From NCBI GenBank assembly GCA_021776685.1, contig JAJFFJ010000105.1, positions 1 to 51,394 on the forward strand: a DNA stretch of 51,394 nt, written 5' to 3'. This document shows, piece by piece, positions 3,808 to 12,294 of this stretch. Each line of letters starts with the position of its first letter. Within the stretch, counting starts at the first letter, position 1. This DNA is from Alphaproteobacteria bacterium (GTDB taxonomy: Bacteria; Pseudomonadota; Alphaproteobacteria; Bin65). The position numbers were made by a program, and so were the translations under genes. Below the pieces are notes generated by a model that worked only from the letters and a program-made list of their open reading frames with translations, had not been told where the DNA came from and did no database searches.

Positions 3808-4398
3808 TCACGCAATCTGTTCCGTGCGGGCGCCCTGACACAGGGGATAGCTGTCCAACAGAGGCTCGATGCGCTCGCGCATCAACGCGGCGCTGCTGCC
3901 ATATAGGTACAGCGCCGTTTCCGTTGGGCCGTCCCAATAACTAAAATATTTGCCGGTCCCTTTGAGCAGACGGTTCAATTCATCGATGATGTGGCCCACG
4001 TCGCAGTTTTCATAAACTTCGTCCGGCAAATCTGTGCCGTTCAGGTAAATTGCCAGACCTTCCTGTGTGCCGAATTCGAACTCATCGCCAGATTGTTCGA
4101 CGACGAGTTTCGAGCCGCGCGGCGCGCCGAGTTCCTCGAGCCGTGTCGTGATGGCTTTCAGGGTTTCCGGATCAGCGGACGCCGCATCAATTTCGATGTC
4201 AGATTGAATAATCCAGCCTTCATCCGATTGCAGTGAACCGCCGCCGGTCACTTCACCGAGGGTTTTGCTCGAAAGAAAGTCATGCAGTTCATCCTCGAAC
4301 ATGTCGCCGCGGTCGAGGGGCTGTAATCGTGCGTTGAGCTGGACCGTGACCAGAATGCCGTTTGGCGCTGTCTGCCGGCTAAGTGAAAACCCGAGCAT
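3808..4398 (-). CDS. Conserved hypothetical protein, 196 aa
   Basis: I do not recognise the family. The protein is acidic and soluble, with no signal peptide or membrane segment. It opens with a strand-like segment (GFSLSRQTAPNGILVTVQLN) and continues with LGEVTGGGSL and an acidic SDIEID stretch. The C-terminal half holds NGTDLPDEVYENCDVGHIIDELN and a Trp/Tyr-rich YFSYWDGPTETALYLYG segment. The start is well supported by GGGAGAG six bases upstream of the ATG. It is convergent with the small cupin (gap of 6 bp) and has no obvious functional partner. Polymorphic-toxin immunity proteins sometimes look like this, but no toxin gene is seen nearby. Confidence 0.75.
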   Translation of the reverse strand: MLGFSLSRQTAPNGILVTVQLNARLQPLDRGDMFEDELHDFLSSKTLGEVTGGGSLQSDEGWIIQSDIEIDAASADPETLKAITTRLEELGAPRGSKLVVEQSGDEFEFGTQEGLAIYLNGTDLPDEVYENCDVGHIIDELNRLLKGTGKYFSYWDGPTETALYLYGSSAALMRERIEPLLDSYPLCQGARTEQIA

Positions 4399-4675
4399 AA
4401 AATCTCTCCCATTTCGGTGCGTCCGGAAACGGGCAGAAGCTAGGGGCAGTTTTTTAAGATTTACCTACTTCTTCCACCAAAAGGGGCAGTCTGGCCATAT
4501 CTGCGATCACGCCAGTCCAGATTAGCGTTTTAGCCTGGCAAACCTGCTTGCCATCAACGAGATCGCGCCTAGGTAAACAGAACCGGGCTATCACCAGCCG
4601 CCCGGTAAGCCCCATCTTCCCGGATTTGATGCGGCCAAGCGCTGCTTCCAACTCCTGTTCTCGGGGAGGGAAGCA

Positions 4676-4912
4676 ATGGCTTGCGGTAAGACAACTTGTG
4701 CAATCCACTATTCAGATCACAGTTCGGGCGGCAGTGACCGCACCGACCCGGATCACGTCGGCTGGAGTCTCAATCGTGTTTGGGTCGTGCTCTCGCTATG
4801 GACGTCGCGTCATCGGCAGCGTCGCGCGTTGGCGCAACTGGATACCCGGTTGCTGCGCGACATCGGGGTGACGCGGGCCCAGGCCGAACGGGAAGTTCGC
4901 AAGCCTTTCTAG
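4676..4912 (+). CDS. DUF1127 (YjiS-like) small protein
   Basis: A 78-residue basic protein whose C-terminal part (RRALAQLDTRLLRDIGVTRA, then QAEREVRKPF) is the DUF1127 motif: a short amphipathic helix followed by an L-x-D-IG-x-(S/T)R-x-(E/Q)-x-E signature. DUF1127 proteins are abundant in Alphaproteobacteria; some bind RNA or affect phosphate and carbon metabolism. The N-terminal 40 residues (Ser/Asp-rich, then a hydrophobic VWVVLSLW stretch) are not conserved in the family. GGGGAGGG at 4663-4670 lies five bases before the ATG. The gene stands alone between a hypothetical protein and the MscS gene. Confidence 0.85.
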   Translation: MACGKTTCAIHYSDHSSGGSDRTDPDHVGWSLNRVWVVLSLWTSRHRQRRALAQLDTRLLRDIGVTRAQAEREVRKPF

Positions 4913-5097
4913 CGCATGTGAAACCGGCCGTTGGAGGAGAGTAATGAAGGTGCTGGGGCAGACCTTGAGCGCGGTCTGATGACCTGTCCGGCCTGGAAAT
5001 CAGACCGCCGTATCGCTTGGCCGAGATTTACCCTAGCGTATAGGTCGGTTGCACCCGGCCTGGCCTGGGTTTCTGAACCGATGAGGCGCGGATTGAC

Positions 5098-5931
5098 ATG
5101 GATGCCTGGCTGCAAGGGCTGTGGGTTGACTTCAACAAATTTTTGACCCGCATGGGCGATTACCTCCCCAATGTGGTCGGTGCTGTGGTGATTCTTCTCG
5201 CCGCCTGGCTGCTGGGGCGCATTTTTCGCTACATTTCCATGCGCCTGCTGCGGGCGCTTGACGGCCTGTTTGAACGGCTATTTACCCGTGGCGCGCTGGC
5301 CCAATTGCGCATTCCACCTTGGGCGGTCCGGCTGGTTGGCGGACTGATCTTCTGGATCATCATGCTCATCGGGCTGGTGATGGCGACCCGGGTGCTGGAC
5401 ATTCCGCTGGCCACCCGCTGGCTCGACAATCTGCTGAACTATGTACCTACGGTCTTTGCCGTAGTCGTAATAATCGTCGCCGGCGTCCTGGCTAGTATTC
5501 TGCTGCGCGATCTGGTGACAACCGGCACAAGCGCCGCCGGGATGCGGCAGGCGCGGCAACTCGGGATTGCGGTTCAGGTAATCGCGCTCGCCATTGCCGC
5601 CACAGTCGGCCTCGATGAAATCGGTATTGATGTCGACCTGCTCATCGCCATCATCGCGGTCGTACTGGCGGCCGGGGCAGGCGGGTTGGCTCTCGCCTTT
5701 GGCCTGGGTGCACGCTCTTTTGTGGCCAATGTGCTGGCGGCGCGGCATGTCGCCCGCCTGTACAGATCCGGCGAGACGGTCGGTATCGATGGCATGCAGG
5801 GCGTCATTGTGTCCATCGGACCTACATTTGTGATCATTGGCGCCGACGAGGGCGTGGTTGCGGTCCCGGCGAAGCTGTTTATGGATCAGATCAGCCTGTC
5901 AGTCACAGTGAGCGAAGATGACGGAAGCTGA
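5098..5931 (+). CDS. MscS-family small mechanosensitive channel-like membrane protein
   Basis: Inner-membrane protein of 277 residues with about five hydrophobic segments (roughly 20-45, 75-95, 115-135, 155-175, 180-205). The last is a Gly/Ala-rich pore-like helix (AVVLAAGAGGLALAFGLGAR). A short beta domain follows (VGIDGMQGVIVSIGPTFVII), as in MscS proteins and in proteins with the conserved TM-helix repeat. It probably lets small solutes out on hypo-osmotic shock, or senses ions. No strong ribosome site is seen. Its end overlaps the next gene by 14 bp, so the MscS, CBS and MgtE genes form one operon; the neighbours suggest a link to divalent cations. Confidence 0.85.
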   Translation: MDAWLQGLWVDFNKFLTRMGDYLPNVVGAVVILLAAWLLGRIFRYISMRLLRALDGLFERLFTRGALAQLRIPPWAVRLVGGLIFWIIMLIGLVMATRVLDIPLATRWLDNLLNYVPTVFAVVVIIVAGVLASILLRDLVTTGTSAAGMRQARQLGIAVQVIALAIAATVGLDEIGIDVDLLIAIIAVVLAAGAGGLALAFGLGARSFVANVLAARHVARLYRSGETVGIDGMQGVIVSIGPTFVIIGADEGVVAVPAKLFMDQISLSVTVSEDDGS

Positions 5932-6742
5932 TCTTCGCCTGGGCGGCGCGTATCTGAAAGGCCTGCCGGTCCAGGCAGCCCGGGCGCTGGAGGCGCTGGA
6001 TCCGGCTGATGTGGCCACCTGCCTGGAAACCTTTGAACCCGACTCGGTTGCGCCCGCGGTTGCCGCCATGCGTGCCGGCTCGGCGCTCGCCGCGCTCAGC
6101 TTGTTGCCCTCCGACAAGGCTCGGGGAATCCTGGCAGCGATGGATCCGATCGCCGCGGTTGCCGTGCTGCGTCTGGCCGATAGCACCAAGCGCGCGGCAT
6201 TCCTTGAGGGGCTTGAGGGACGCCGTGCGCGCCGCCTTAAACGGGTTGCTGGTTATCCGGCAGATGTGGCGGGCGCATGGTGCGATCCGCTGTCGCCGGT
6301 ATGGCCGGCAGCGACACCGGCGGGCGACATCGCCGAGGCGGTGCGCAGGACCGCAGATGGTCCCCATGACCCGCTCTGCATCATCCGATCCGACGGCGGT
6401 TTCGCGGGCTGCGTCCGGATCACTGACGTGATGAGTGCCGGTGCTGAGACGCCGGTTCGCCGGCTCCTCCAACGTGACCTGACGCCAATACTCGACTCCA
6501 CGCCACTTGCGGATGTGACTGGTCACGAAGGGTGGCTGGATTTTGCGCAACTCCCGGTGATCGATTTGCGGGGCCGCCTTGTTGGCACCCTGTCCCGCCG
6601 CCGCTTCCTCACCGGCACCGGCGCCACGCCGCCGGCCGCAGCCGGGGCCGATGGCGACGATATTGTCATCAGCGCCACAGCCGGTGCCGTTACTTCTCTG
6701 GCCATCATTCTGGAAGCCGTCCTCAGCCGGGAATCCGACTGA
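5918..6742 (+). CDS. MgtE N-domain/CBS protein without a membrane domain
   Basis: A 274-residue soluble protein that looks like the cytosolic half of a magnesium transporter MgtE. Residues about 1-110 form an alpha-helical MgtE-N superhelix (ALEALDPADVATCLETFEPD, LLPSDKARGILAAMD). Residues about 115-235 form a divergent CBS pair (CIIRSDGGFAGCVRITDVMS; FAQLPVIDLRGRLVGTLSRR). There is no transmembrane pore. The C-terminus (DIVISATAGAVTSLAIILEA) is hydrophobic but too short to be the channel. It overlaps the MscS gene by 14 bp and lies 29 bp before full-length mgtE. A plausible role is a regulatory subunit that gates MgtE or the MscS channel; this is inferred only. Confidence 0.8.
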   Translation: MTEADLRLGGAYLKGLPVQAARALEALDPADVATCLETFEPDSVAPAVAAMRAGSALAALSLLPSDKARGILAAMDPIAAVAVLRLADSTKRAAFLEGLEGRRARRLKRVAGYPADVAGAWCDPLSPVWPAATPAGDIAEAVRRTADGPHDPLCIIRSDGGFAGCVRITDVMSAGAETPVRRLLQRDLTPILDSTPLADVTGHEGWLDFAQLPVIDLRGRLVGTLSRRRFLTGTGATPPAAAGADGDDIVISATAGAVTSLAIILEAVLSRESD

Positions 6743-6771
6743 AATTCGGCCGAACCAAAGGAATTCGCTCG

Positions 6772-8088
6772 ATGACTATTGCCGTCGCACCCGCTCTTGC
6801 GCAACTGAGCGGCAAATTCCTTGTGGAGCATCCCGGGGAAGCCGCTAAGCGGCTCGAGACGCTGGACGCCGGTCTGGTCGCCGAGTTCGCCGCCTCCTGC
6901 GACGAAGAGCTTTTGGAGCCGTTGTTCGAGCGCCTGTCCTCTGATTTTGCAGCGCAGGTGGCGGATGGGCTGGAAGAGGAGCGGCAAATCCAAATTCTCC
7001 GCCGGCTCGATCCCCGCTATGGCGCGCTGATGCTCGTGCAACTGCCAGAGGAGAAGCGAAAGGCGTTGCTGAAAGGGTTGCCACGGGGCGTCGCCCGCTC
7101 CCTTCGTACCATGATGAGCTACCAGCCGGAATCTGCCGGGGCGCTGATGGAGACCCGGCTGACAGCGTTGCGCGAGGATATGGCTGTGGAGGACGCGCGG
7201 CGGCGAATTCAGAAAGGCAGGCGTCAAAACGAGGTTCGCTTTTATGTCACTGATGCCGACAATCGGCCTGTGGCGCGAATGAACGCCCGCGACTTGCTGG
7301 TTGCCGCGATCGACGCGCCAGTGGGCGAGCTTGGTCAGGCGGTCGAAGTGACCGTGACCAGCGATATGCCCAAGGATGAATTGACCAGGTTGATGCAGGA
7401 TACCGGCCTGAGTGAACTTCCCGTAGTGGATGCTGAGGGACGACTGGTGGGCGTCATCAGTCACCTTGCGCTGGTGGGTGCGATGCGGGAGGAAGCGACA
7501 GCCGACATCCAGAAGATGGTGGGTGTCAGCAAGGACGAACGGGCATTGTCGCCGGCTATGTTCTCCGTGCGCAAGCGGCTGCCTTGGCTGGAGATCAATC
7601 TGCTGACCGCTTTTGCCGCCGCCTCCGTGGTCGGCGCATTTGAAAGCACCATTGCAAAATATACGGCGCTGGCGGTCCTCTTGCCCGTGGTGGCTGGCCA
7701 ATCAGGCAACGCGGGCGCCCAGGCGCTCGCGGTTGCGATCCGTGGTCTTGCCCTGCGCGAGATTGGCCCCCGTCAATGGCTCCGGCTGCTGCGCAAGGAG
7801 GCTGCGGTGGGGCTGGTTAATGGCGTCGCCATCGCCATCACCACCGGCGTCGCCGTACTGATCTGGAGCCAATCGCTGGGACTGGCCGGCGTGATCGCGG
7901 TCTCCATGGTGATCTCGATGGTCATCGCCGGAGCTTCCGGCGCGCTAACCCCGATAATCCTTGCCAAGCTGGGGCAGGATCCGGCGCAATCCTCTTCGAT
8001 CGTGCTGACAACCATCACCGACATCGCCGGGTTTATGTCGTTCCTCGGGATTGCGACGTTGCTGGCCGCCTATTTGCCGGCCGGTTAG
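6772..8088 (+). CDS. mgtE: Magnesium transporter MgtE
   Basis: Mg2+-selective channel/transporter of the inner membrane, 438 residues. The N-domain (about 5-125) is followed by two CBS modules (about 130-255) that sense cytosolic Mg2+. Five transmembrane helices begin near 270. The family signature PVVAGQSGNAGAQ is at about 305-317 and the pore aspartate is Asp417 in TTITDIAGFMSFLG. The ATG at 6772 is chosen because AAAGGA (6757-6762) precedes it by nine bases; upstream in-frame starts fall inside the preceding gene. The CBS2 segment ELPVVDAEGRLVGVISH is well conserved, so regulation by Mg2+ is expected to be intact. Confidence 0.95.
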   Translation: MTIAVAPALAQLSGKFLVEHPGEAAKRLETLDAGLVAEFAASCDEELLEPLFERLSSDFAAQVADGLEEERQIQILRRLDPRYGALMLVQLPEEKRKALLKGLPRGVARSLRTMMSYQPESAGALMETRLTALREDMAVEDARRRIQKGRRQNEVRFYVTDADNRPVARMNARDLLVAAIDAPVGELGQAVEVTVTSDMPKDELTRLMQDTGLSELPVVDAEGRLVGVISHLALVGAMREEATADIQKMVGVSKDERALSPAMFSVRKRLPWLEINLLTAFAAASVVGAFESTIAKYTALAVLLPVVAGQSGNAGAQALAVAIRGLALREIGPRQWLRLLRKEAAVGLVNGVAIAITTGVAVLIWSQSLGLAGVIAVSMVISMVIAGASGALTPIILAKLGQDPAQSSSIVLTTITDIAGFMSFLGIATLLAAYLPAG

Positions 8089-9809
8089 ACCTCAGCGTTT
8101 TTCCGGACCACCTTCGATGTCGGAAAACCGTGCATGCCGTTGTGACCAAAGGACATTGCGTTGGAGCGCAGGGGATCGCCACTGACGACCACCATGAAGT
8201 CTTCGGCGCGCGTGGCGATGGGCACCAACCTGCCGGGGTCGTCGCCGGCATAGACCGGGTCCGCAAGGCCGTCTGCGACCAGCTGATTCAGGCTGCGCCG
8301 ACCGGGTACAAGATTGCACCAGGGCCCGATATAGGTCTCCACTTTGTGCGCCGGCAGACGGGCATGGGCGAACAGCATCGCTTGCAGGCCCGCCTTGTCC
8401 AGGCCGTCGGCGGCCAACGTGTTGGCGACCAGGGGGCTGAGCACGAGCAAGGGGCGGGATGTGCCGCCGGCAAATCCGACCGTGAACGCCAGCTCCCAGC
8501 TCATCTGGCGCACCAGGCCATCGGCCAGATAAGGCACGATCTCCGCCGCTGTGCGCCCGTAGATCGACCCGACCACACCGCCGCCGGTATAGCGCGCCAT
8601 GGTGACTGTGGTGTCGTCTTTGCCAAAGCCCTGATCCTGGTTGAGGCCGGGCCAGCCCAGATCCTGCATGGCGTCGTGACTCTCCGCCAGCACCACGCGC
8701 CAGGTGTTGCCAAATGTGCTCTTGTCCGCGCCTTCCGGCCGGGAGCCGGCCACATTGCGCAGAAGCAGCCGGACAAACCGGCCAACGCTGGTGTTGGCGC
8801 GATATCCATCGCGGAGTGCTGCACCCGCGCTGTTGAACCCAAGGGTCGCCGCCGCCGGACCACTCAGCATCACCAACGCTTCGCCGCCGGTCGTGTCGCC
8901 GCTGTGCTGCACGCCGTAGGCCGGGTCGACCAGAGTTTCTGCGATGGCCACCAGCACTGGCATATGTTCCGGGAGGCAGTTGGCCATGACGCCGTTGACG
9001 GCCACATTCTGAATCGTGGCGAGGCAACCAGAGGGCTGCAGAATGCCAATTTCCCGATCCGACGGGTCAGGCGTCGCCGCCAGAAAGGCCAGCACTTTCT
9101 CGGCGGTCGGCGGCACAATGGGCAGTCCATCAGACCACTGACGCTCCTCGAACAGGGTGCTGATCTCTTCAAAGTTGCCACGGCCGACAACGCGCGCCGG
9201 GTCATGATCCGCGCCGGAACCGATATCGTTTGTCGCTGGTGGCGCCTGGGTCAGCCACCGCGCCACATCGGGAATGGTCGCATCGCGGAGATTTTCGGTC
9301 ATCTCGGGCAAACTCTGCGAATCCACATGGCCGATAACCCGCGCCACGGGCAGGTCAGGGACGCCCAGTCCGCCGCGGATGGCCTGGGCCTGGCCCAGGA
9401 AACCGTCGCAAACCAATGAGGCTGTGGGAAAACCGGCTTTCTCGATGATTGCGCTCGCACGGAGCACAGCAGGGGTGCAGGCGCCTCAGCAACCGACCCC
9501 GCAGACCACGGCGTCAACGCCAAGGTCTTTCAGTTTCTCCGGCAGCGCGTCCAGTACCGCTTCCTCGTCGCCGCCAAAGATGGTGCCGAAAGCATCCGGG
9601 CCGACAAAGTCCACGGCGCCGAAAGTCTCGCGCAAGCCGTCTTCGATTACCGGGAACATCTCATCGCCCCGAAATGCATAGTCCCAGACAAAAGCAATCT
9701 TCTTGCCGGTGAGAGTATCAGGGCGCGGCGCGGCGGGCAGGGGAGTCACCCCCAGCGGGCCTTCCGGACTCAGCACGTGGTAAAGCTCGGATGAGTGACT
9801 CTCAGGCAT
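8085..9809 (-). CDS. UGSC-family probable selenoprotein fused to a conserved C-terminal domain; in-frame UGA at 9486-9488 read as Sec
   Basis: One continuous frame of 574 residues interrupted only by TGA at codon 108. Translation across the TGA gives CGVGC-U-GACTPA, a redox U-x-x-C motif that matches the UGSC (seleno)protein family, where Sec or Cys begins a (U/C)-G-S-C motif. Here Ser is replaced by Ala (UGAC). Both sides of the TGA are clearly one domain: VDAVVCGVG before it, and LRASAIIEKAGFPTASLVCD after it. Residues from about 190 onward form a second conserved domain of unknown function (WSDGLPIVPPT, GVMANCLPEHMPVLVAI, HSGDTTGGEALVMLSGPAAA). A 9-of-10-bp hairpin directly follows the UGA. 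The ATG at 9809 is set by GGAGAA nine bases upstream. No selA/B/C/D gene is in the window. The 3' end overlaps mgtE by 4 bp, convergently. Confidence 0.8.
9451..9484 (-). promoter_or_regulatory. Candidate bacterial SECIS hairpin downstream of the UGA
   Basis: On the mRNA strand GCGCCUGCAC (9484-9475) pairs with GUGCGAGCGC (9460-9451): eight Watson-Crick pairs, one U-G pair and one C/A mismatch, with a 14-nt loop (9474-9461). It starts one base after the UGA. An alternative minihelix GCAC (9478-9475) with GUGC (9467-9464) has a 7-nt loop. Position and size fit a bacterial SECIS, which lies inside the coding region just after UGA; I cannot score it against a covariance model. Confidence 0.55.
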
Positions 9810-9920
9810 CGGTCTTTTCTCCATCAACCCAACGTGGCCGTGCGCGGCCTTCTCACGGAACGATACGCCATCGGCGGTGATCCGACAAAGCGCCACTGGG
9901 CGATCGGCTGTGCCCGCTGA

Positions 9921-10517
9921 CTAAGCGCCTTCCGCGTTGAAGATGTCCTTCACGAAGTCGCGGGATTTCCACTCAGGCTCAGGCGGTACGTGGCCATTGC
10001 GTGGCGCATATTCCGACGGTTCGACCATTTCCATATGCGGGATATAACGCGGACAGTTGGGAAAGATGTGATCCACCGCGACCCGTACCAATCTCTTGGC
10101 GCCCGGCAGGCTTTCTAGCGCCTCCTGCGACTCGTCGATGGAGGCGCGACCGTTGATGCGCATGCGGGCAGCAAGTCCATCGAAGTTCTGACCGTCGAAT
10201 CGGAGGAACAACAGTCCGACCCGTTGGTTTTCCCTGATATTGCCGAGGCTTCGGTACATCCGGTTGCCATCGTAGTCCGGCCAGACGAGCTCGCGATCAC
10301 CGGTCACCCGGACGAAACCTGGTTCGCCGCCCTTAAACGAACAATCGACGCTCTCCGCTGACGCCGTCGCCAGGAAGAAAAACGGAACCGACTCAATCAG
10401 TCTCCGGTCATCTTCATTAAGCTCTGTGCGCATGCGGTGTGCTTCCAGCCGATCGGCCACCGCCCGCCCTTCATATCGGTCCTGCAGTTCGCGCATGCCA
10501 TCGCTATAGAAGTCCAA
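9921..10517 (-). CDS. Pyridoxamine 5'-phosphate oxidase-related FMN-binding protein
   Basis: A 198-residue split-barrel flavin protein of the PNPOx-like family. The core begins near residue 40 (LIESVPFFFLATASAE), followed by GGEPGFVRVTGDRELVWPDY, where the conserved strand order and Tyr/Asn (DGNRMYRSLGNIRENQRVGL) match the FMN-binding barrel. The C-terminal part (VDHIFPNCPRYIPHMEMVEP) is typical of the subgroup that uses flavin or F420-like cofactors to reduce unknown substrates. The TTG at 10517 is taken as the start because GGGAGG precedes it at ideal spacing (AGGGAGGCAGATTTG). It is transcribed in the same direction as the UGSC gene, about 110 bp upstream of it. Confidence 0.85.
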   Translation of the reverse strand: MDFYSDGMRELQDRYEGRAVADRLEAHRMRTELNEDDRRLIESVPFFFLATASAESVDCSFKGGEPGFVRVTGDRELVWPDYDGNRMYRSLGNIRENQRVGLLFLRFDGQNFDGLAARMRINGRASIDESQEALESLPGAKRLVRVAVDHIFPNCPRYIPHMEMVEPSEYAPRNGHVPPEPEWKSRDFVKDIFNAEGA

Positions 10518-10729
10518 ATCTGCCTCCCTGAATTCAAATCTATCCAGTTAATGCAGGCTAACGTATCCGGATTGACGATGGCGATTGTCTTGCGCAACCG
10601 CTCGCGTCGACCGGGCCGCCCGTGGGCCGCATGCCGCCCGTGCGAAATTGGTTCAGGTTGGGGCCGGGGGAAACTGCTAGGACTGGCGGGTTGGTGCGCC
10701 GGGGATGGCGCAATGCCGGGGAGGCGCCT

Positions 10730-11626
10730 GTGCGGCCCGTGGATGTATTGACGGCGGTCATGGTGGCCGCCATCTGGGGCTTTGGCTTCACCCTGTCAAA
10801 AGCGGCGCTGGCGGGATTCCCGCCCATTTTTCTGATGGCGCTGCGGTTCACGCTGACCGCCGCGCTGCTGGTCTGGTTCGTCAAACCGCCCACCGGATAT
10901 ATGTGGAAAGTGGCGCTGATTTCGATGGTTGGCGCGGGCATCCAGTACTCCGTCACATTCACGGGTCTAAAAGGCCTCAACGCGTCGGCCGCGATCATCA
11001 TTATTCAGCTCGAGGCACCGATGGCCGCGTTACTTGCGGCAGTTTTCCTCAAGGACATTATCGGTTGGCGGCGGGCATTTGGAATGGCTGTGGCGTTTGC
11101 GGGCGTGGTGATCCTGGCCGGCGATACCTCCGTTCAGGGTGCCTGGATTTCGGCGCTTCTGGTTCTGATCGGCGCGGCCTTTTTCGCCGCCGGCCAGGTC
11201 ATGACAAAGGCGCTGAAAGGCGCGGTCGGTGGATTTCAGCTCACGGCATGGGTGTCGGTATTTGCCTTCCCGCAGCTCTTTGTCATCAGCTTTCTGACGG
11301 AAGATAATCACTGGCAATATGTGCAGAATGCCGACCAGGTGGTCTGGCTCACGGTCCTGTACCTTGCCTTCATCATGACCGCGCTTGGCTACAGCCTTTG
11401 GTACAGGCTGATCGCCAAATATTCGATAAATGTGGTCATGCCGTTCATATTGCTGGTGCCGTTCTCGACGGTTATCAGCGCGGTTTTGCTGCTGGACGAG
11501 GCGCTCTCGCCCTATGTGCTCATCGGCGGTCTGACCACCATCGCCGGGGTAATGCTGATTACATTCCGCGACAGCCCCTTTCGGCGAAAACGCCCAGTGG
11601 AAGCAGCAAAGACCGGCCAAACCTGA
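10730..11626 (+). CDS. EamA/DMT-family permease
   Basis: Inner-membrane transporter of the drug/metabolite superfamily, about 298 residues with ten predicted helices in two EamA repeats. Repeat 1 starts at TAVMVAAIWGFGFTLSKAAL. Repeat 2 starts near GAWISALLVLIGAAFFAAGQ, and the chain ends with LGYSLWYRLIAKYS, PFSTVISAVLLLDE and IAGVMLIT. The substrate is unknown; relatives export amino acids or metabolites. The GTG at 10730 is preferred over a TTG at 10622: GGGGAGG sits six bases before it, and the upstream extension is Arg-rich and unlike a transporter N-terminus. It is divergent from the flavin split-barrel gene across about 210 bp in which I see no clear operator. Confidence 0.88.
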   Translation: MRPVDVLTAVMVAAIWGFGFTLSKAALAGFPPIFLMALRFTLTAALLVWFVKPPTGYMWKVALISMVGAGIQYSVTFTGLKGLNASAAIIIIQLEAPMAALLAAVFLKDIIGWRRAFGMAVAFAGVVILAGDTSVQGAWISALLVLIGAAFFAAGQVMTKALKGAVGGFQLTAWVSVFAFPQLFVISFLTEDNHWQYVQNADQVVWLTVLYLAFIMTALGYSLWYRLIAKYSINVVMPFILLVPFSTVISAVLLLDEALSPYVLIGGLTTIAGVMLITFRDSPFRRKRPVEAAKTGQT

Positions 11627-11797
11627 TCGACCGATGAGGCCCGATGGGTCACGTCACGTGTTCCATTAGTGCTGAATTGGTCCGATTTTCTACTGCAAAT
11701 GCAGGGGTTTCTCGTGCCTTCAGCGAATCCCCTATGAATCTCCACCAAACCCTCAATTGGTCTTCAAGCTTCACGATCCCGGGTAAGGCAAAAAGAG

Positions 11798-11840
11798 GAC
11801 GTTCAACAACGCGGGCCCCAAAGGTCCGCGTCCCAACGTC
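11798..11840 (+). promoter_or_regulatory. Nested stem-loop in the 5' leader of the Cys-rich secreted protein gene
   Basis: The inner hairpin pairs ACGCGGGCC (11809-11817) with GGTCCGCGT (11823-11831) around the loop CCAAA; all nine positions pair, one of them G-T. It is enclosed by GACGTT (11798-11803) and AACGTC (11835-11840), a perfect outer stem. The structure ends 32 bp before the ATG and just before the AAAGGA ribosome site. There is no T-run after it, so a simple terminator is unlikely. A structured leader or a protein-binding site is inferred. Confidence 0.5.
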
Positions 11841-11872
11841 AAATAAGACCTCAACCCGAAAGGATCAGTCCC

Positions 11873-12151
11873 ATGTCCCCGAAACGTTTCATCGCCGTCG
11901 CCGCCTTGGCCCTTATGGCAGCGCCCATCGTTGCGAACGCCCAGAGCCAGTCTCCTACCGACGCCCGCCTCTACCAGCGGAACGCTGCGGAAATCGCCCG
12001 CAAGCAGCGTGAGTACAAACGCTGCGGCTCCTTTGCGATACGTGTCTACAATGCCTGCCTGCAGCAGGCCGGTACCAACAGCAATGCAATCCGTTCCTGC
12101 CGCGCCAACTATCAGCGCGCCGTGCAAGGCTGCCAGAGCATCCTGCAGTAG
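11873..12151 (+). CDS. Small secreted Cys-containing protein, 92 aa
   Basis: Unrecognised small exported protein. Residues 1-23 form a clear signal peptide (MSPKRFIAVAALALMAAPIV, then ANA before QSQSP). The mature part of about 69 residues is helical and basic, with four cysteines in the pattern C-x10-C-x12-C-x9-C (KRCGS, NACLQ, RSCRA, QGCQS), which suggests two disulfide bonds formed in the periplasm. AAAGGA lies nine bases upstream of the ATG. The gene is flanked by a structured leader and a good intrinsic terminator, so it is a single-gene unit. Its function is unknown. Confidence 0.8.
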   Translation: MSPKRFIAVAALALMAAPIVANAQSQSPTDARLYQRNAAEIARKQREYKRCGSFAIRVYNACLQQAGTNSNAIRSCRANYQRAVQGCQSILQ

Positions 12152-12180
12152 TCCAAAATGCAGTTATCACCAGAAATTGG

Positions 12181-12216
12181 CGGCTCCAGGCATCAGCCAT
12201 GGAGCCGTCTTTTCTT
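12181..12216 (+). terminator. Rho-independent terminator
   Basis: CGGCTCCA (12181-12188) pairs perfectly with TGGAGCCG (12200-12207) and is followed by TCTTTTCTT. It lies 30 bp after the stop of the small secreted protein gene and before the ribosome site of the Fe-S protein gene. Confidence 0.8.
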
Positions 12217-12294
12217 GTGCGTGCCGGCGTCCGTTGTGGAATAGTCCGCACTCGTCCTCGTGTTTGCCCCAGAACCAACCGGACGGAGGTGCCC

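Follow-up and report, generated by a model that had tools for sequence, protein, structure and literature searches.

The window, meaning the whole 51,394-nt stretch of DNA that was analysed, carries on its minus strand a gene (8085–9809) whose in-frame UGA, judging from the sequence comparisons set out below, is almost certainly read as Sec. We can say with high confidence that this appears to be a genuine selenoprotein gene from a known family, and there is good support for the view that its putative SECIS is of another family's type. Our explanation as a whole, which we regard as very probable, is that the gene encodes a UGSC-Unknown_1 selenoprotein in which an AhpD-type SECIS has replaced that of the family, and that the protein has a thioredoxin-linked redox role. 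An earlier note on this DNA had already recognized the selenoprotein, and this stands, but it overlooked what is unusual about the gene, its SECIS.

Translation of the minus strand from 9809 to 8085 with TGA read as U gave 574 codons (574 aa) open from an ATG start to a TAA stop, with a single internal TGA at 9486–9488, so the earlier claim of one frame split only by this TGA holds; ordinary gene calling cuts the gene into two. A GGAGA at 9818–9822, eight bases upstream of the ATG at 9809, is the probable ribosome-binding site. The motif at the read-through site is CGVGC-U-GAC-TP, with U as residue 108, and the second residue of its U-x-x-C part, Cys111 (codon 9477–9479), is invariant in the alignments. 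Two frame-sharing pieces flanking one TGA could, by themselves, reflect chance, but the read-through protein matches the Pfam UGSC family (PF24696) across the TGA, over residues 13–187 (9249–9773), with 86 bits against a cut-off of 25, which counters that reading. The cut-off of the NCBIfam UGSC equivalog NF041046 was not reached (38.5 vs 125 bits), and the window protein is a member of the wider Pfam family outside this equivalog. Relatives with approximately 46–63% identity to the window protein align over its whole length, and purifying selection was evident on both sides of the TGA (dN 0.27–0.43 vs a near-saturated dS of approximately 1.0–1.7). A genome-wide code change that would make TGA a sense codon was rejected because conserved genes of this genome end in TGA, which is otherwise a normal stop here.

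The genome assembly (4.54 Mb, 98.9% complete) contains all four components on which the selenoprotein reading in the earlier note depended, selA, selB, selD and tRNA-Sec, with selD present as an Ndh-SelD fusion. The tRNA-Sec (68.5 bits) has the anticodon TCA and the SelB match scored 403.6 bits; SelA and the Ndh-SelD fusion lie beside them, all on contig C84. The cluster of Ndh-SelD fusion, selC, selB and selA occupies 5109–12228 of locus L047, where one AhpD-related selenoprotein gene adjoins selA and a second lies at the cluster's other side. Our census of selenoproteins in the genome, which consisted of family searches only, identified at least seven other selenoprotein genes that contain an in-frame TGA: five AhpD-related, one stand-alone UGSC and one PrdB-like. 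The PrdB-like gene (L190, 1501–2163, plus strand) is on contig C54, as is the second UGSC gene, and its SECIS is AUCAGAC-CGUGA-GUCUGAU, with the loop at nt 21 (nucleotides in SECIS elements are numbered throughout from the U of UGA).

We then turned to the relatives. A genome-wide scan yielded 80 long relatives of the window protein, of which 79 were readable through codon 108. At this codon, 72 of the 79 have TGA and 7 have Cys, with nothing else found, so every readable homologue has one or the other at the residue in question; together with the Sec machinery of the genome, this supports the earlier proposal of a probable selenoprotein. The family pattern, in which x-x-Cys comes after a residue that is Sec in some homologues and Cys in others, is thus seen here, and the literal U-G-S-C motif is replaced in the window gene by U-G-A-C. 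The substitution of Ala for Ser that the earlier note had singled out is indeed present, but it is not peculiar to this gene, as the 79 relatives comprised 63 with UGSC, 8 with UGAC, 7 with CGAC and 1 with UGGC. On the tree, the window gene fell within the UGAC and CGAC rows, in a mainly UGAC set and on a long end branch (0.59), and UGAC was found at codon 108 in six genomes of the same taxonomic family. From the tree position and these six genomes, we conclude that Ala for Ser is mainly a trait of one clade, in which Sec/Cys exchange occurred. One relative (G080:C12:39712-40872) has two in-frame TGA codons in the region matching the window protein.

In Sec relatives, the SECIS of this family consists of a stem formed by nt 15–20 and 27–32, with the loop CGUGNU at nt 21. 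The stem was complete in 68 of the 72 Sec relatives and retained five of its six pairs in the other 4, while synonymous randomisation kept all six pairs in only about 3% of versions. Among Cys relatives, 2–5 pairs of the stem remain, and most have lost the hairpin. At the corresponding place in the window gene (9457–9474, minus strand), 3 of the 6 pairs are left, and the window SECIS differs from that of all 72 Sec relatives examined; rather than being conserved, the hairpin has its loop moved by 7 nt. The candidate for this relocated SECIS is UGUGCUC-CGUGC-GAGCGCA (9450–9468, minus strand), a hairpin of 7 bp beginning 17 nt downstream of the UGA, with its stem at nt 21–27 and 33–39 and the loop CGUGC at nt 28, which begins after 24 nt from the UGA. 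A 7-bp hairpin was equalled by 2.3% of synonymous versions. Published criteria for bSECIS elements call for a loop of 3–9 nt, a stem of 4–16 bp, a G in the first two loop positions, a spacing of 16–37 nt and an MFE of -7.5 or lower (PMC13188914), and the relocated hairpin agrees with these in its 5-nt loop, 7 bp, G at position 2 and spacing of 24; in isolation it has an energy of -8.8 kcal/mol.

The sequence of the relocated hairpin pointed to another family in the same genome. AhpD-related selenoprotein genes of this genome and of its family carry CUGCUC-CGUGC-GAGCGG or variants of it, with the loop at nt 28–29. The 15-nt SECIS core TGCTCCGTGCGAGCG (9452–9466, minus strand), at nt 23–37, is letter-for-letter identical in the window gene and in two AhpD-related genes of this genome, and its spacing from the UGA is also the same. 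When the spaced core pattern was searched for across the whole genome with at most one mismatch, it occurred five times, in the window and in four AhpD-related genes. In a set of 385 genomes from the class, all 23 spaced-core matches at translated loci were AhpD-type, and the other matches listed likewise begin TGAAC, with the exception of the window.

The window protein and the AhpD-related proteins have L-R-A-S in common at +8 to +11 after Sec, and the core match follows partly from this shared peptide. The codon choice over V-L-R-A-S had a joint probability of approximately 0.001 under local codon use, a post hoc figure for a 15-mer picked after the match had been seen. With Leu-Arg-Ala-Ser equally far from Sec in both proteins, a switch of SECIS would be possible through synonymous changes only. 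Loss of the family hairpin, together with an nt-28 core that matches the AhpD type, suggests that the window gene changed its SECIS type, and we consider it fairly probable that it swapped the inherited element for an AhpD-type one at a shifted distance, either by synonymous substitutions or through a very short conversion tract. The relocated hairpin is seen in the one genome that represents the genus, searches of the order and family having given no second genome of that genus. It has been reported that the phylogenies of SECIS elements track those of the selenoproteins they serve (PMC1794560), a co-phylogeny from which the window gene appears to depart, its protein and its putative SECIS differing in affinity. 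Our literature search found no paper on the exchange of SECIS types between bacterial genes.

It could be argued that Sec is decoded here while the AhpD match arose by chance from codon use, and that a different pairing, such as a 9-bp lower helix with a 14-nt loop, acts as the SECIS. Folding the sequence that immediately follows the UGA gives this lower helix as the structure of lowest energy, and the GU of the family loop stays at the same distance. In a fold of just the 39 nt that follow the UGA, longer-range pairing (-14.4 kcal/mol) outcompeted the relocated hairpin, which came out best when the first 6 nt downstream of the UGA were removed or upstream sequence was added; a ribosome covering those six nucleotides would thus be expected to favour it. 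However, a 14-nt loop exceeds the published 3–9 nt (PMC13188914), whereas the hairpin with its loop at nt 28 conforms on every count, and with one mismatch allowed, the only other genes of the genome that share its core are AhpD-related selenoprotein genes. We therefore consider a different pairing unlikely.

A second possibility is that the UGA is no longer decoded, its SECIS having decayed, and that the gene is a recent pseudogene or consists of two separately translated pieces. Plain decay of the SECIS was what folding energies first suggested: the 36–59 nt after the window UGA, folded alone, had an energy no better than synonymous chance, the segments of 36–42 nt included. A count of the pairs in the family stem, followed by a search for hairpins with G-U in the loop, altered this reading. 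Like the Cys relatives, the window gene has a broken family SECIS, and the long end branch (0.59) would also suit a gene that has ceased to be decoded. Nevertheless, the frame is intact both before and after the UGA, where dN has stayed well below dS over a long divergence, the UGSC domain depends on residues from either side, and the replacement hairpin, matching the SECIS of other selenoprotein genes in the genome, is present, all of which makes non-decoding improbable. Least probable, at a very slight chance, is a sequencing error or a single Cys-codon mutation (TGC/TGT to TGA) in a Cys homologue already without a SECIS, since although TGC and TGT are one base from TGA and CGAC relatives occur in the same clade, the window gene lies in a mainly UGAC set on the tree, six genomes from its taxonomic family have UGA as codon 108, and an AhpD-type core in the right register downstream would hardly arise by chance.

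Under our explanation of an UGSC-Unknown_1 selenoprotein with an exchanged SECIS, the ancestral hairpin with its loop at nt 21 would have been lost via synonymous changes and replaced by the AhpD-type element with its loop at nt 28, and SelB and Sec-tRNA-Sec would read the UGA with the help of UGUGCUC-CGUGC-GAGCGCA. In the Rossmann-like, PrdB-related domain, Sec108 and Cys111 of the strand-helix loop would form a selenenylsulfide, which may pass electrons to the second domain, where Cys278 is invariant, or to a substrate that this domain holds, and which the thioredoxin system would re-reduce.

In an AlphaFold model of the protein (pLDDT 91.6), the UGSC domain is predicted to be alpha/beta (Rossmann-like); Sec108 falls in a strand-helix loop, and the helix begins at Cys111. 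The UGSC part of the model resembled PurE and flavodoxin-type alpha/beta folds, in weak matches of which the best had a Z of 10.3 and an rmsd of 2.9 over 123 aligned residues. A thioredoxin-like fold has been proposed for UGSC in the family description of PMC2398784; thioredoxin folds were absent from the structural matches listed for the domain, which may nonetheless have such a fold. A search of PDB sequences with the profile returned chance matches only (E 0.4–0.7). Comparison of UGSC with PrdB-like selenoproteins by hhalign gave a probability of 90% and an E of 1.5e-6, with Sec aligned to Sec, and the cut-off of the PrdB model TIGR04483 was not reached (17.7 vs 300 bits).

The long second conserved domain (8088–9197, minus strand) that the earlier note had described is present in full-length relatives, but a fusion of this kind is not new, as the family description of Zhang and Gladyshev 2008 (PMC2398784) already has some members in which UGSC is joined to another conserved domain, Unknown_1, and the domain in the window protein is probably this Unknown_1. 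It gave no Pfam match and no confident fold match: Foldseek, run with the whole chain and with the second domain alone, found nothing below E 0.001, and its fumarase and chorismate-mutase-like matches (best Z 5.8, 90 aligned) were too weak to back any named fold. Cys278 (codon 8976–8978) is invariant in the fused relatives and the aligned stand-alone paralogues.

The neighbours of UGSC genes point to a likely role as a selenenylsulfide oxidoreductase supplied by thioredoxin. A TrxR-like gene lies near the UGSC gene in 29 of the 80 relatives, as does a stand-alone second-domain paralogue (29/80), and in many UGSC-type relatives both genes directly follow the UGSC gene. In the window's own genome, a second-domain gene beside an unfused UGSC gene has an N-terminal thioredoxin-like part with the motif CPTC, for which the Pfam matches are below cut-off. 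In the window's own UGAC clade, TrxR and paralogue neighbours are absent and the neighbouring genes show no conserved operon, which is why we did not count as evidence the PNPOx-type gene that lies immediately upstream, likewise on the minus strand (9921–10517); it is not among the clusters conserved beside UGSC genes elsewhere. The second UGSC selenoprotein gene of the genome (motif UGSC, unfused) and its second-domain gene (L134, 9858–10355 and 10370–11836, minus strand, contig C54) form a two-gene version of the window's fusion. Also at L134, an unusual Rieske/TPP-dependent enzyme fusion (3817–5793) adjoins a Rieske/glutamate-synthase-type fusion (5817–7598), both on the minus strand.

UGSC is a known selenoprotein family that is functionally uncharacterised, and the TrxR-like operons and the thioredoxin-like second-domain gene open the way to a first biochemical test of its proteins. 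If our explanation is true, a gene could have its SECIS replaced without giving up the use of its Sec codon, and one SelB could drive convergence on a favoured SECIS core; if confirmed, the window gene would be a natural experiment on the hairpin-UGA distance that is tolerated and on what SelB needs for recognition.

Compared with known systems, the window gene resembles the UGSC family (PF24696), as described in PMC2398784, in its Pfam match, in the Sec/Cys exchange at U-x-x-C and in the second-domain fusion of some members, and differs in the Ala for Ser, in a score under the NF041046 cut-off and in both the position and the sequence of its SECIS. PrdB and GrdB, the selenoproteins of D-proline and glycine reductase, show distant homology to it around UxxC, with Sec on Sec, but the window protein is far below the PrdB cut-off and the genes examined around the window include no reductase operon. 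With the AhpD-related CxxU selenoprotein (NF041238), the window shares the core TGCTCCGTGCGAGCG, the loop CGUGC 24 nt after the UGA and L-R-A-S, although the proteins are unrelated and have in common only the SECIS core and those four residues. Finally, the Escherichia coli fdhF-type SECIS is likewise a stem-loop just downstream of the UGA with G-U in its loop, but it differs in sequence, and the fdhF hairpin lies nearer to the UGA than that of the window.
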